Under the pieces are notes generated by a model. The model was not told the DNA's origin, searched no databases, and saw nothing but the letters and a program-made list of their open reading frames with translations. Position numbers and translations under genes: made by a program. A stretch of 64,000 nt of DNA from Hydrogenimonas sp. SS33 (GTDB lineage Bacteria > Campylobacterota > Campylobacteria > Campylobacterales > Hydrogenimonadaceae), in assembly GCF_040436365.1 (NCBI RefSeq), contig NZ_AP026369.1:682001-746000 (forward strand). Direction: 5' to 3'. Shown here in pieces: positions 11,626 to 36,192 of this stretch (position 1 is its first letter; every line of letters starts with the position of its first letter).

Positions 11626-11877
11626 CTATATCCAGCTGATTCCCAGCAGCGCCAGCAGTGCCAGCAGCCCTTTGGTCTTGTACTCGCCGATCAGTTTGTC
11701 CTCTTCGTCGGCGATGATGATCTCCAGATCCTCGTCGCTGAGAGTGTTTATATCGACCCGGCTCTCCACCAGGCGTGCCCGGGTGCGTATGAGCGCTTTC
11801 TCCCGAAGCTTTTCGTAAAATTTGTCCCGGCTTCTTTTGGGAAGTTTTTTGATAACATTGAGAATATTTTCTTTCAT
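11626..11877 (-). CDS. Small hypothetical protein
   Basis: 83 residues: a charged helical N-terminus (MKENILNVIKKLPKRSRDKF), an acidic middle (LSDEDLEIIIADEEDKL) and a short hydrophobic C-terminus (GLLALLALLGISWI) that may sit at the membrane. Not recognised. It starts about 50 bases from the left end of the MITE, so its promoter is probably close to the insertion. Confidence 0.6.
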   Translation of the reverse strand: MKENILNVIKKLPKRSRDKFYEKLREKALIRTRARLVESRVDINTLSDEDLEIIIADEEDKLIGEYKTKGLLALLALLGISWI

Positions 11878-11921: not shown

Positions 11922-11930
11922 TTCATTACC
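11922..11930. repeat. Left 9-bp target-site duplication of MITE
   Basis: TTCATTACC directly precedes the left inverted end and is repeated exactly at 12094-12102 directly after the right end, as expected from a 9-bp staggered insertion. Confidence 0.75.
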
Positions 11931-12093
11931 CATGGTACTTCAAGTTAAAGGTTCATTTCGGTTTTAAGCGGCTTTGAGGGCGGCTGTTTGGCATAAGATG
12001 TGCCAAACAGCCCTCAACCTCAGAGAAATCCCATGGAAGGGATTTCGAGAATGAGCGCAAAACTGAAAGAAACCTTGAACTTGAAGTACCATG
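11931..12093. mobile_element. MITE-like non-autonomous element, 163 bp
   Basis: The ends are 35-bp terminal inverted repeats (11931-11965 and 12059-12093), starting CATGGTACTTCAAGTT, with about four mismatches. Both ends are flanked by an identical 9-bp direct repeat. Inside are a perfect 12-bp stem (11982-11993 with 12001-12012, loop TAAGATG) and a second stem GAAATCCC/GGGATTTC (12025-12046). No transposase is encoded. A 9-bp duplication fits families such as IS4/IS5/IS10-like elements, but the parent cannot be named. RNA from it would be highly folded. It lies between a small minus gene and a plus stress-protein gene. Confidence 0.8.
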
Positions 12094-12102
12094 TTCATTA
12101 CC
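12094..12102. repeat. Right 9-bp target-site duplication of MITE
   Basis: TTCATTACC, identical to 11922-11930 and immediately adjacent to the right terminal inverted repeat. Confidence 0.75.
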
Positions 12103-31344: not shown

Positions 31345-32676
31345 CTACTTTTCAAACTCCTCATAAAAACGTTTGACGTTGAAAAGGTCGACGATCTGCC
31401 TGGAGACGACCCGTTTGGTGAAGAAGCGAAGCAGCACCTCCACGGCGAAAGCGAGGGCGAAGGCGGCCAGGAGGTAGTACCCGATCATCGGGTCGTGGAG
31501 GCTGGTGTAGTAGAGCGTCAGCCCGGCGATGGCGAACATCGCCACGATGGCGCAGCAGATGGCCCAGACATTGGCGCCCGTCTCCTTGATGCGGAAAAGG
31601 TGCCCCACATGGGTCAGACCCTGTACTACCAGCACCGCGAGCGCCGCCACGGTCGTCACTTCCGAAAGGTTGAAGAAGAGAATCAGCGGAATGATGAGCA
31701 CTCCACTGATGACGAGCCCTTCGAAAGAGTGGAAGACGTTGTAGCTGTAGACTTTGGGCAGGTTCCCCTCCTTCGCCATGGTATAGCCGATCTCCGTGGC
31801 GGCGTAGAGGGTGGCGTTGATGGCCGAAGCGGTGGCCAGAAGCGCCGTCGCCGCCATGATCTTGAAGCCCCAAATCCCGAAGATCGGCTTGGCGGCTTCA
31901 GCCAGGGCGTAGTCTTTGGTCTTGATGACCTCCGCAAGGGGCAGGTTGCCCAGCACGGCGATGGAGACCAGAATGTAGAGCGCCGCCACGATGCCGATGG
32001 CCCACATCATCGCCCGCATCATTGTCCGTCTGGGGTCTTCCATATCTTCAACGGTGTTGGTGATGACGCTGAAACCCTGGTAGGCGAAGAAGGTGAGGCC
32101 GATGGCGAAAAGCATGTTCTTCATGGGCGGCATCTCCTTCACCGAAAGGTACTCGGGATGGATCGTAAAGAGTGCGGCGATGGCGAAAACCACCAGAATC
32201 GTCACTTTCACCGCCACGATGAGATTCTCGGACTTGGCGACGATGGAGGCGCCGACAAGATTGATGAGGGTGAAAAAGGCGACGATCCCCACGGCGAAGA
32301 GGTTGACGACGAAAGGGTCCTGGCTGCCGTGGGTGAAGGTGCTGGCATAGGCGCCGAAAGATTTGGCCACCGCCGCCAGGGCGATGAGCTGGGAGAAGTA
32401 AAAAAGGACGCTGGCGGCACCGGAGAAGACCCCCTCCCCAAACCCCTGCACCAGGTACTCCACAATGCCGCCCCGCGAGGGGTAGCGCAGCGCCAGCTTC
32501 GCCAGTGAATAGCCGCTCAACACCGCGGCGATGCCGCCGAAAATGAAAGAGAGCCAGACGATGTTCCCCGCAATCGCCCCGGCCTGGCCGATGACGATGA
32601 AGATACCCGCACCGACCATCGAGCCGATGCCAAGAAAGACGGCACTCCACAAACCGAACGCTTTTTGCTTGTCCAT
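31345..32676 (-). CDS. APC-superfamily amino acid permease
   Basis: 443 residues from ATG 32676, which has AAGGAA upstream; an upstream in-frame extension lacks membrane character and a ribosome site. Twelve membrane helices, with the APC signature SAVFLGIGSMVGAGIFIVIG in helix 1 and GFSVITNTVEDMEDPRR in helix 6. It likely imports or exchanges an amino acid or amine; substrate not readable. Divergent from the response-regulator operon, sharing a 110-base control region. Confidence 0.87.
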   Translation of the reverse strand: MDKQKAFGLWSAVFLGIGSMVGAGIFIVIGQAGAIAGNIVWLSFIFGGIAAVLSGYSLAKLALRYPSRGGIVEYLVQGFGEGVFSGAASVLFYFSQLIALAAVAKSFGAYASTFTHGSQDPFVVNLFAVGIVAFFTLINLVGASIVAKSENLIVAVKVTILVVFAIAALFTIHPEYLSVKEMPPMKNMLFAIGLTFFAYQGFSVITNTVEDMEDPRRTMMRAMMWAIGIVAALYILVSIAVLGNLPLAEVIKTKDYALAEAAKPIFGIWGFKIMAATALLATASAINATLYAATEIGYTMAKEGNLPKVYSYNVFHSFEGLVISGVLIIPLILFFNLSEVTTVAALAVLVVQGLTHVGHLFRIKETGANVWAICCAIVAMFAIAGLTLYYTSLHDPMIGYYLLAAFALAFAVEVLLRFFTKRVVSRQIVDLFNVKRFYEEFEK

Positions 32677-32747
32677 GGTTTTCCTTGACAAACTTTTTTC
32701 GGCTATGATACCACTTTCTCCACAAATGAAATGTGATGCCGGTCGCA

Positions 32748-32780
32748 TTCACGTTGCGTTAACGTCATCTTCCCTATAAT
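32748..32780 (+). promoter_or_regulatory. Promoter of two-component operon with tandem half-sites
   Basis: TTCACG-N5-TTAACG (32748-32764, half-sites 11 bp apart) is followed ten bases later by a perfect TATAAT (32775-32780), seven bases before the ATG, so the transcript would be nearly leaderless. The box occupies the -35 position, the usual place for an activating OmpR-family regulator, suggesting autoregulation. Confidence 0.5.
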
Positions 32781-32786
32781 GATGCC

Positions 32787-33443
32787 ATGAGAGCCAAACT
32801 ACTCCTTCTTGAAGATGACGACGTCCTCTCCGAAACATTGGTCGATCTCCTCGAGAACCACGATTTTTCGGTCGAACACGCAATAAGCGGGGAAGAGGCG
32901 ATCGAAAAAAGTTTCGAGAAACATTTCGATTTGATGATACTCGATGTCAATGTTCCCGTCATGAACGGTTTCGAACTTCTCAAAAGCCTGAGAGACGCGG
33001 GGGTGACGACCCCCGCCATCTTCATCACGGCCCGGACCGATATCGCATCGTTGGCCCATGGTTTCGACGTGGGGGCGGACGACTACCTGAAAAAGCCCTT
33101 CGACTTCGACGAACTGCTGATCCGCATCGATGCGCTGCTGCGAAAGTCGTTTCATTCTCGTGCCGACGAGATTGACGTGGGAGCGTTTCGATTTTATGTC
33201 GGAAGAAGCGAACTCTACAGAGAAACCGACTACATTCCCCTGCCTCCTTCGGAACTGAAGCTCGCCCGGCTCTTTTTTCAACACAGAGGCCACACGGTAG
33301 AAAAAATACGGCTTCTCGAAGCGTTGGGCGACGGTACCGAGGCAAGTGAAGGAGCCTTGAGAGTGCATATCGCCAAACTTCGGAAGATCGGCCTGCCCAT
33401 ATTGACCGTCAAAGGTGTAGGATATCGGCTTGAAACGACGTGA
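32787..33443 (+). CDS. OmpR-family response regulator
   Basis: 218 residues. Receiver domain (1-120) with acidic pocket LLEDDD (9-12), phospho-acceptor Asp53 in LMILDVNVPVMNG and the conserved Lys in ADDYLKKPF. C-terminal winged helix (about 125-215) ending ILTVKGVGYRLE. It binds DNA as a tandem dimer after phosphorylation. Overlaps the kinase gene by 14 bases. The signal is unknown; adjacent metal-related genes suggest a metal or redox cue. Confidence 0.93.
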   Translation: MRAKLLLLEDDDVLSETLVDLLENHDFSVEHAISGEEAIEKSFEKHFDLMILDVNVPVMNGFELLKSLRDAGVTTPAIFITARTDIASLAHGFDVGADDYLKKPFDFDELLIRIDALLRKSFHSRADEIDVGAFRFYVGRSELYRETDYIPLPPSELKLARLFFQHRGHTVEKIRLLEALGDGTEASEGALRVHIAKLRKIGLPILTVKGVGYRLETT

Positions 33444-34497
33444 AAAACAGGCTTTCTGGAAATTTTTCCTACTATATTTTTCCAGTGTAGCCCTTCTCAT
33501 ATCGATTGCCGGATATTTTTACTTTAAACAAACCAGGGCCCATCTGCTCAAGGAAGAAGAGTTCTCCCTGTTGGAATTTGCACGCCATATCAAAATGGGA
33601 GGGCCTTCCGGCGAATTTTCCGAAGCATTTCGATCCCGAATTATTTCTGCCGGAAATCGACATATCGACATACGAAACTTCGAAAAAATCGATAATGAAT
33701 TTGTCAAACTCATACCGATGCCCTTGCACAATTACTATCTCGAAGTGCGAAAATCGACACAAACGTTCGAAAAGAAAATCGCAAATATCAAAAAAGAGAT
33801 AATCGCCGTACAGATTCTGTTACTCTTTCTCTTTGGAGTTCTGAGTTATGTATTGGCAAAAAACGCCACCAAACCGCTGGAGGAGAGCATTGAACTTCTT
33901 GACGCTTTCGCCAAAGACCTGATACACGATCTCAATACTCCCGTCACGTCGATTAAACTCAACCTCACTTTGTTGGAGCAGATGCCGGATATCAAAAAAA
34001 ACCCACGCATTCTGCAACGCCTTCGCAAAAGTGCCCATACCATTTCAGAACTGCATCAAAACCTGAAAATCCTTCTCGAGGAGAAGACTTTTCAAATGGA
34101 ACGGACCGATCTTTGTCCCATCGTCAACGAGATTGTGGAGATACAGAAACCTCTCTACAAAAACCTCACCTTTATCGTCGAATGCCGGCATTTCCATGCA
34201 CACATCCATGCCAATGCGATGAAGCAGCTCCTGTTGAATATCATTGCCAACGCCTGCAGATACAACCATCCAAACGGCTATGTGAAGATCCACACAAAAG
34301 GCCGGTCGCTCGTCATCGAAGACAGTGGAATCGGCATCGACGATCCGGAAAAGATTTTCAATCGCAACTATAGCAAAAGCGGAAGCAGCGGCCTGGGGCT
34401 CGACATTGTCAAAAGGTTGGCGATGGCGATGCAGATTGGGATCGACGTGAAACAGAGTGAAAACGGCGGCACGCTTTTCATCTTAACGATGCGTTAA
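33430..34497 (+). CDS. Sensor histidine kinase
   Basis: 355 residues, TTG start. Two membrane helices (12-32 and 124-144) enclose a periplasmic sensor of about 90 residues with no known fold by eye. H-box DLIHDLNTPVTSIKLN (His166), N-box LLNIIANACRYN, G1 IEDSGIGID and G2 GLGLDIVKR are present. No separate HAMP domain is obvious; the H-box follows helix 2 after about 20 residues. Base composition becomes visibly AT-richer from here to about 36240. The stop codon lies in a second regulator-like box. Confidence 0.92.
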   Translation: MKRREKQAFWKFFLLYFSSVALLISIAGYFYFKQTRAHLLKEEEFSLLEFARHIKMGGPSGEFSEAFRSRIISAGNRHIDIRNFEKIDNEFVKLIPMPLHNYYLEVRKSTQTFEKKIANIKKEIIAVQILLLFLFGVLSYVLAKNATKPLEESIELLDAFAKDLIHDLNTPVTSIKLNLTLLEQMPDIKKNPRILQRLRKSAHTISELHQNLKILLEEKTFQMERTDLCPIVNEIVEIQKPLYKNLTFIVECRHFHAHIHANAMKQLLLNIIANACRYNHPNGYVKIHTKGRSLVIEDSGIGIDDPEKIFNRNYSKSGSSGLGLDIVKRLAMAMQIGIDVKQSENGGTLFILTMR

Positions 34498-34514
34498 TGC
34501 CTATATGCGACAAT
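34483..34514 (+). promoter_or_regulatory. Tandem half-site box before DUF2202 gene
   Basis: TTAACG-N5-TTAATG (34483-34499) shares ACGWTGCGTTAAYG with the box at 32748 and also has an 11-bp repeat. A GACAAT hexamer (34509-34514) lies nine bases beyond, like the -10 at the first box. It overlaps the kinase stop codon. Confidence 0.5.
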
Positions 34515-34544
34515 TTTTCTGAAACACGACAGACAGGAGCCATG

Positions 34545-35246
34545 ATGAGAGTCATATCAAAGTATATCGTTGCGGTATCGGTTGTCATAGCTTTGTCATT
34601 CCTCACGGGGTGCGGAGGCGGAAGCGGCGGTGATGATGTTCCAAACACGCAACTCACCGATGCGCAAAAATATTCTCTTGCGTATATGTGGAACGAAGAG
34701 AAGCTTGCCAAAGACATCTATCTGGCGATGAATGAAAACACACCGCACATGACATTATACAATATCGCCACGAACTCGGAAACGCAACACGAAGCGGCCG
34801 TTGAATCTCTGGTGCAACAATACGATATCAATATCACAAATCTCGAAAATTATGAAATCTATTACTCGGAAGAGGAGCTTAGGGCATTTGGTCCGGGAAA
34901 GTTCGGCGTACCTGAAATACAAAAGCTATACGATACGCTCTATGCCAAAGGAAGTCAGTCACTTCAAGATGCTTTGGAAGTAGGATGTATGGTCGAAGTG
35001 ACGGATGTGGAGGACCTGGACAAATATATCGAAACGGCGAATGGCAACACAAATCTGGTGACGGTATTCACATACCTCAGAAACGGAAGCTATAACCATT
35101 ACTGGGCTTTCGACACTGCGCTTAAATCTCTTGGAATCAGTGAAGGGTGTTGTTCCCTTGGAAAACAATATTGCAAGACACCTGAAGAGTACCCCGTTTC
35201 CAGAGGAACACCGAATGGGGGGAACGGATATCGGGGCGGAAGATAA
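34545..35246 (+). CDS. DUF2202 ferritin-like lipoprotein
   Basis: 233 residues from ATG 34545 (GGAG five bases upstream; 34542 is also possible). The signal sequence ends FLTGCGGG, a lipobox with Cys near residue 23. The body carries the DUF2202 helical pattern YMWNEEKLAKDIYLAMNE and NSETQHEAAVESLV, where Glu and ExxH-type residues could bind a di-metal centre as in ferritin-like proteins. C-terminal Cys cluster EGCCSLGKQYC. It is exported and lipid-anchored. Gene order after the kinase suggests it is a main target of the two-component system. Confidence 0.82.
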   Translation: MRVISKYIVAVSVVIALSFLTGCGGGSGGDDVPNTQLTDAQKYSLAYMWNEEKLAKDIYLAMNENTPHMTLYNIATNSETQHEAAVESLVQQYDINITNLENYEIYYSEEELRAFGPGKFGVPEIQKLYDTLYAKGSQSLQDALEVGCMVEVTDVEDLDKYIETANGNTNLVTVFTYLRNGSYNHYWAFDTALKSLGISEGCCSLGKQYCKTPEEYPVSRGTPNGGNGYRGGR

Positions 35247-35272
35247 ACTCGACTTAGAAGGAGGACAACGAC

Positions 35273-35608
35273 ATGAAACGGACGATCTTGATGATGGCAA
35301 TGGCAATAACAGGAGTACTGGCACAGGGGCCACAGATGCCCACATTTGCCGATTTCGACAGAGATGGAAACGGAAAAGTGACACAGCAGGAGTTTCAGCA
35401 AACACGGCAAGAACGCATGACGCAACGTGCAAAAGAGGGCCGTATGATGAAAAATGCCCAGAACGCGCCGCAGTTTGGCGATATCGATACAAACGGTGAC
35501 GGTTTTATTGATCAAACGGAATTTCGAAACCATCAGCGAAGTCATATGCGTTCGCAAAGAGGCGGCCAGGGGCAAGGCCGCGGCATGGGAAGAGGAAGAA
35601 ACTGGTAA
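35273..35608 (+). CDS. EF-hand domain protein, exported
   Basis: 111 residues with a short signal peptide (1-17, ending VLA). Two canonical Ca-binding loops: DFDRDGNGKVTQQEF (about 27-41) and DIDTNGDGFIDQTEF (about 70-84), with Asp/Asn at positions 1, 3, 5 and Glu at 12. The C-terminus is Gly/Arg-rich (RGGQGQGRGMGRGRN). AAGGAGGA is well placed. It follows the DUF2202 gene by 26 bases and is probably on the same transcript. Likely a periplasmic calcium sensor or buffer. Confidence 0.85.
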   Translation: MKRTILMMAMAITGVLAQGPQMPTFADFDRDGNGKVTQQEFQQTRQERMTQRAKEGRMMKNAQNAPQFGDIDTNGDGFIDQTEFRNHQRSHMRSQRGGQGQGRGMGRGRNW

Positions 35609-35745
35609 CTGATACGCAAAAAGCGTAGCATCATCTCGAAATCCACATTTTGGAGTATTAGAAGGAGACCATCAAAATCATTTGTAACGGTCAGTCTCCA
35701 CCCATAATCCTCTGGTAAAATCAGGAAGATGTACGAGGAGTTTGT

Positions 35746-36192
35746 ATGAAATTGAAAAAATGGTTTATAGGAGCGGGGATCCTCTTCGTTCTCATTCAGT
35801 TTGTACCGTATGGTCACGACCATGAAAACCCAGCGGTGGTTACGGAACCGAATTGGGCGGACGACTGGACTCGGAAAACCTTCATGCGTTCTTGTGGCGA
35901 CTGCCACTCCAACGAAACCGAATGGCCGTGGTATAGCAAAATCGCACCCGTATCATGGTTGGTGGCATACGATGTGAAAGAGGGGCGGGAACATTTCAAC
36001 GTCTCCATGTGGGGACATCAGAAAAAGAATAAAGGTGAAGATGCCGCTGAAGAGGTCGAAGAGGGAGAAATGCCACCGCTGCCCTATCTTCTTATGCATC
36101 CTGATTCTCACTTGAACGATGCGGAGAAGAGAAGATTCATCGAAAGACTTAAACACACTTTCGGAGAGGATAGTGATGAAGATGATAATTGA
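35746..36192 (+). CDS. Haem-binding domain protein (monohaem c-type)
   Basis: 148 residues: one N-terminal membrane anchor (about 5-22) and a haem_bd domain with CGDCH (50-54) and the conserved SNETEWPWYSKIAPVSWL and GREHFN segments. The C-terminus is acidic. It faces the periplasm and probably acts in electron transfer or haem sensing. A GAGGAG ribosome site and a TAAAAT hexamer (35716-35721) lie upstream. The 137-base gap before it holds only a GGAGAC/GTCTCC inverted repeat (35664-35699) and a TACGC/GCGTA pair. Confidence 0.85.
   Translation: MKLKKWFIGAGILFVLIQFVPYGHDHENPAVVTEPNWADDWTRKTFMRSCGDCHSNETEWPWYSKIAPVSWLVAYDVKEGREHFNVSMWGHQKKNKGEDAAEEVEEGEMPPLPYLLMHPDSHLNDAEKRRFIERLKHTFGEDSDEDDN

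Follow-up and report, generated by a model that had tools for sequence, protein, structure and literature searches.

Nucleotides 11931–12093 (plus strand) of the 64,000-nucleotide stretch of Hydrogenimonas sp. SS33 DNA analyzed here (the window) constitute a 163 bp MITE, one member of an orphaned family with ISAs1-type ends the helper of which is gone from the genome. To judge from the sequence, an ISAs1-family DDE transposase acting in trans very probably mobilized this non-autonomous element. MITEs as an element type are already known and the family is a new member, for which ISAs1 now provides a likely transposase family, while its copies within a single genome form a data set for testing the retention of a folded structure after insertion.

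The element is flanked by two copies of the 9 bp target site duplication TTCATTACC, at 11922–11930 (assigned from the sequence and the aligned flanks) and at 12094–12102 (from the sequence), which match exactly. Its terminal inverted repeats, at 11931–11965 and 12059–12093 (both given on the plus strand), comprise a left end with tip CATGGTACTTCAAGTT, matching the ISAs1-type IS ends CACGGTAATTCAAGTTTAA, and a right end recognized by its pairing with the left. Over 35 nt they are complementary at 31/35 positions (89%) with 4 mismatches, for which the earlier wording "near-perfect" is slightly generous; the element boundaries, the 35 bp length of the inverted ends and the exact 9 bp repeat in that preliminary description were all correct on re-examination. 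In between lie two hairpins on the plus strand, the first (11982–12012) with a perfect 12 bp stem GGCTGTTTGGCA/TGCCAAACAGCC (arms 11982–11993 and 12001–12012; helix 4), the pairing of which is kept across copies, and the second (12025–12046) with stem GAAATCCC/GGGATTTC (arms 12025–12032 and 12039–12046; helix 6), in which 98.8% of cells are paired across copies. The predicted fold of the entire element amounts to −88.7 kcal/mol versus −41.9 ± 4.1 kcal/mol in dinucleotide shuffles (z = −11.3, 0/200), in line with the strong internal stems, the perfect 12 bp hairpin included, reported before. Equally, the element has no coding capacity, the ORFs crossing it being short and spurious-looking with no credible gene among them. 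No Rfam family matches the MITE, the sole Rfam match in the window being a tRNA, and the end motif occurs elsewhere in the window as a single match with 3 mismatches.

Searching the source genome (G000), which is one complete contig of 2.25 Mb, yielded the sister copies that were to be expected of a MITE: 21 full-length copies, that at 11931–12093 being one, and 2–3 partial ones, 84–94% identical among the full-length copies and 78–94% identical when full and partial copies are taken together. A covariance model built on the inner 127 positions of the MITE retrieved the same 21 full copies and two internally deleted ones. The sequence is short, non-coding, multicopy and dispersed. A recognizable target duplication of 8–10 bp borders 14 of the 21 full-length copies (seven with at least 7/9, four with at least 8/10 and three with at least 6/8 positions matching), whereas these cut-offs are reached by 0.2–1% of control pairs, in which the left flank of one copy was set against the right flank of another. 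The copy at 11931–12093 is the only full-length one with an exact 9 bp duplication, others being exact at 8 or 10 bp, and we therefore count it among the younger copies. Its designation as a recent insertion holds in this relative sense only, with the nearest sister being 94% identical.

BLAST over 100 relatives returned relatives of the MITE in one congener, G012 (1/17 congeners), with one full-length relative at 79% identity and one 78 bp element (L035:1501–1578) that has little beyond two ends and its own 9 bp duplication, GGAGTTAA[C/T]. The covariance model gave no match in the eleven congeners, G012 not among them, to which it was applied, and the family thus appears species-restricted apart from the G012 relatives. 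We found neither a lack of other copies nor fixation in distant species. Two further matches concern L033, which is short, seemingly inside a coding region and due to chance, and L047, a hairpin resembling the MITE ends, possibly also by chance.

As had been described, the MITE lies between two genes, in a gap of 284 bp. The left neighbor, an 83-aa ORF without Pfam match (11626–11877), is on the minus strand and the right neighbor, encoding a YflT-domain protein (PF11181; 12162–12665), is on the plus strand 68 bp downstream of the element, and the two are therefore divergent. G012 holds the same divergent gene pair (L039) 136 bp apart without the element, its YflT ortholog (71% identical) adjoining the start of the left-gene ortholog. 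With the MITE and a single duplication taken out, the gap in the window shrinks to 112 bp, similar to that in G012. The empty-site comparison thus delivers an element-free gene pair, the G012 intergenic DNA being too diverged from the source for base-by-base alignment of the junction. Sister copies, duplications, this element-free site and the existence of a larger element sharing the ends (see below) together bear out that the sequence is an intact MITE.

RNAalifold analysis of the copies gave 57 consensus pairs, of which 11 have been altered in both partners with pairing preserved (20 cells), compared to 3.6 ± 1.3 pairs and 5.5 ± 1.9 cells in shuffles (0/500 reaching the observed values) and 1–5 covarying pairs in slid registers. 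Pair 26/150 accounts for 7 of the 20 covarying cells and may represent a single subfamily change; outside this pair, most of the paired changes occur in just a single copy, an indication that they arose once the copies had separated. This suggests that the fold has been kept in the copies after insertion. Divergence from the consensus is 13.5% of positions in the tips versus 5.0% in the core, a contrast that leans on few copies, being most pronounced in copies 6, 18 and 19, with a probable tip indel inflating the difference count of copy 6. Counts of single changes to G-U or to A-C (28 versus 20, P = 0.31) reveal no significant strand preference, and we dropped them as an argument for one.

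On what we consider the likeliest reading, transcripts running through the copies would form a long hairpin of some slight use, or one that is at any rate retained, and it might serve, for example, RNA processing or stability. This retained-RNA reading is about evenly matched with another, in which the stems are maintained by templated arm-to-arm repair (quasi-palindrome correction or gene conversion), and in which covariation is the mutational by-product of a dead element. In favor of such repair between arms, the mechanism is known in bacteria and G-U changes do not significantly exceed A-C changes on either strand; this comparison does not tell the two readings apart. Templated repair should, however, remove standing wobble pairs, and those at columns 22/154, 36/140 and 70/76 persist in 11–17 of the 21 copies; the better conservation of the core relative to the tips argues against it as well. 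We consider templated repair a serious contender that falls somewhat short of an even chance. Of the three roles put forward for the element, a terminator, a small folded RNA or a promoter change, the folded RNA is the sole one with positive evidence, namely stem covariation, for which this mutational alternative exists.

Assignment of the transposase family starts from the MITE end consensus, CAYGGTACTTCAAGTTYAAG. A pattern search of the order revealed similar ends in G167, which belongs to another family, and a search of that family revealed paired ends bounding ISs of 1166 bp (G493, L084:1501–2666) and 1165 bp (G525, L079:1501–2665), along with a 786 bp internally deleted form of an ISAs1-type IS (G526, L080:661–1446). 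The MITE consensus is identical to the ends of these ISs at 18/19 positions, homology extending over roughly the terminal 20 bp, with no similarity beyond. Perfect 9 bp duplications are present at both insertions readable on each side (gtagcaaac, twice, in G493 and attaatagc, twice, in G526). The two halves of the G493 transposase match NCBIfam transpos_ISAs1 (NF033564) with E-values of 2.8e-38 and 4.6e-38 and scores of 131.9 and 131.2 bits, the cut-off being 70 bits, and its domains are PF13808 and PF01609. In both ISs of about 1.17 kb (L084 and L079) the transposase reading frame is broken at an A-run, into different frames, and an intact transposase with these ends was therefore not seen; the shared break point may stem from decay or an assembly error or, possibly, from programmed slippage. 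The internally deleted G526 form is a possible intermediate between IS and MITE. This form, with its perfect 9 bp duplication, contains an in-frame 239-aa reading frame.

From the ends and the duplication length we infer that an ISAs1-family DDE transposase, acting in trans, would have bound the shared ends CAYGGTACTTCAAGTTYAAG of the MITE and joined it to staggered cuts, generating the 9 bp (8–10 bp) duplications. Like ISAs1-family ISs (H-repeat relatives), the MITE combines a near-identical tip with a 9 bp target duplication; unlike these, it has no transposase gene and an unrelated interior. The transposase with the same ends that the preliminary description called for was found elsewhere in the order, in the ISAs1-type ISs, and not in the source genome: the complete G000 sequence contains 0 matches to the ISAs1 transposase and no detectable DDE_Tnp_1 (PF01609) transposase. 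The family is presumably now immobile there, and since it has no autonomous partner in G000, we file it as a MITE with ISAs1-type ends and not as an ISAs1 member. We found no ISAs1-type IS with these ends in the same genus, which, the relatives being mostly draft genomes, is weaker evidence than absence from the complete G000.

Several candidate partners were rejected. In the congener G009, a high-copy ISAs1-like IS is represented by about 16 fragments, many at contig edges (L104, L105, L108, L111 and L112); these were discarded as parent on account of their different ends. Likewise, the ends accompanying a transposase in G167 (L060) differ (TAGTCC...). The exact end pattern gave one match each in genome_contigs and viral_contigs, with no paired end or transposase seen, and these were taken as chance. 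We also considered, instead of ISAs1, a parent from the IS4 family, either of subgroup IS4Sa or IS231-like. The published IS4Sa ends, CA------T, and direct repeats of 8–10 bp (PMC2266710 Table 1) do fit those of the MITE, yet that consensus fixes just three positions, no PF01609 transposase is detectable in G000, and where near-identical ends were found on an IS, its transposase is of ISAs1 and not of IS4 type. IS4Sa/IS231 parentage, resting on the ends alone, was dropped once this ISAs1 IS turned up and is in our view very unlikely.

Shared ends around differing hairpin cores recur in the order, since G167 and G469/G473 have elements of 140–153 bp with the same ends and unrelated hairpin interiors, some with duplications of their own. 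A set in G167 (L048:1376–1521, L093, L098 and L100) has an interior of AAGAGC/GAGCTC-type repeats, the L048 element featuring a 10 bp duplication with 1 mismatch. A third MITE family with these ends has a GTAGAGTTTACTCCCAC-type hairpin core (L082:1501–1640, L091:362–514, L073:1501–1645 and L072) and occurs in two species of one genus; tcttaatatt is found in both flanks of the L082 element. We tentatively propose, as a possibility that is rather less than probable, that after transposase loss the MITE family took on a role as a dispersed RNA element of conserved structure, lying for the most part upstream of genes and preserved through compensatory mutation at some 20 loci, with the order's families holding separate MITE families of the same build (ISAs1-type ends, unrelated hairpin cores).

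With respect to the locus itself, the left gene has a promoter-like site (11912–11884) located outside the MITE, which lies between divergent genes, and the likely effect of the MITE is therefore to spread two promoters apart; separation of the divergent promoters, or a hairpin in the 5′ transcript, are both possible. Its strong hairpins notwithstanding, a transcription terminator, as previously put forward, or a 3′-end structure is most improbable, and a terminator role is unlikely in general, since no terminator-like site was found inside 11931–12093 and, by an approximate, codon-usage-based gene call, 13 of 24 copies have divergent neighbors and 11 have tandem ones, with no copy flanked by convergent genes.

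A link between ISAs1 and MITEs goes unmentioned in the 2024 review of prokaryotic MITEs, and in the part of the literature combining the two that we covered such a family was not found described. With the Correia/NEMIS, ERIC and RUP MITEs the family shares a length of 100–200 bp, inverted ends, a target duplication, long hairpin transcripts and intergenic positions (PMC2229807, PMC10969869), whereas its ends are different and its duplication is 9 bp; a further difference is that reports of RNase processing concern the transcripts of Correia and ERIC. Elsewhere in the window, positions 32001–36000 have a G+C content of 0.49, compared to 0.55–0.61 in the remainder, and are possibly foreign DNA.
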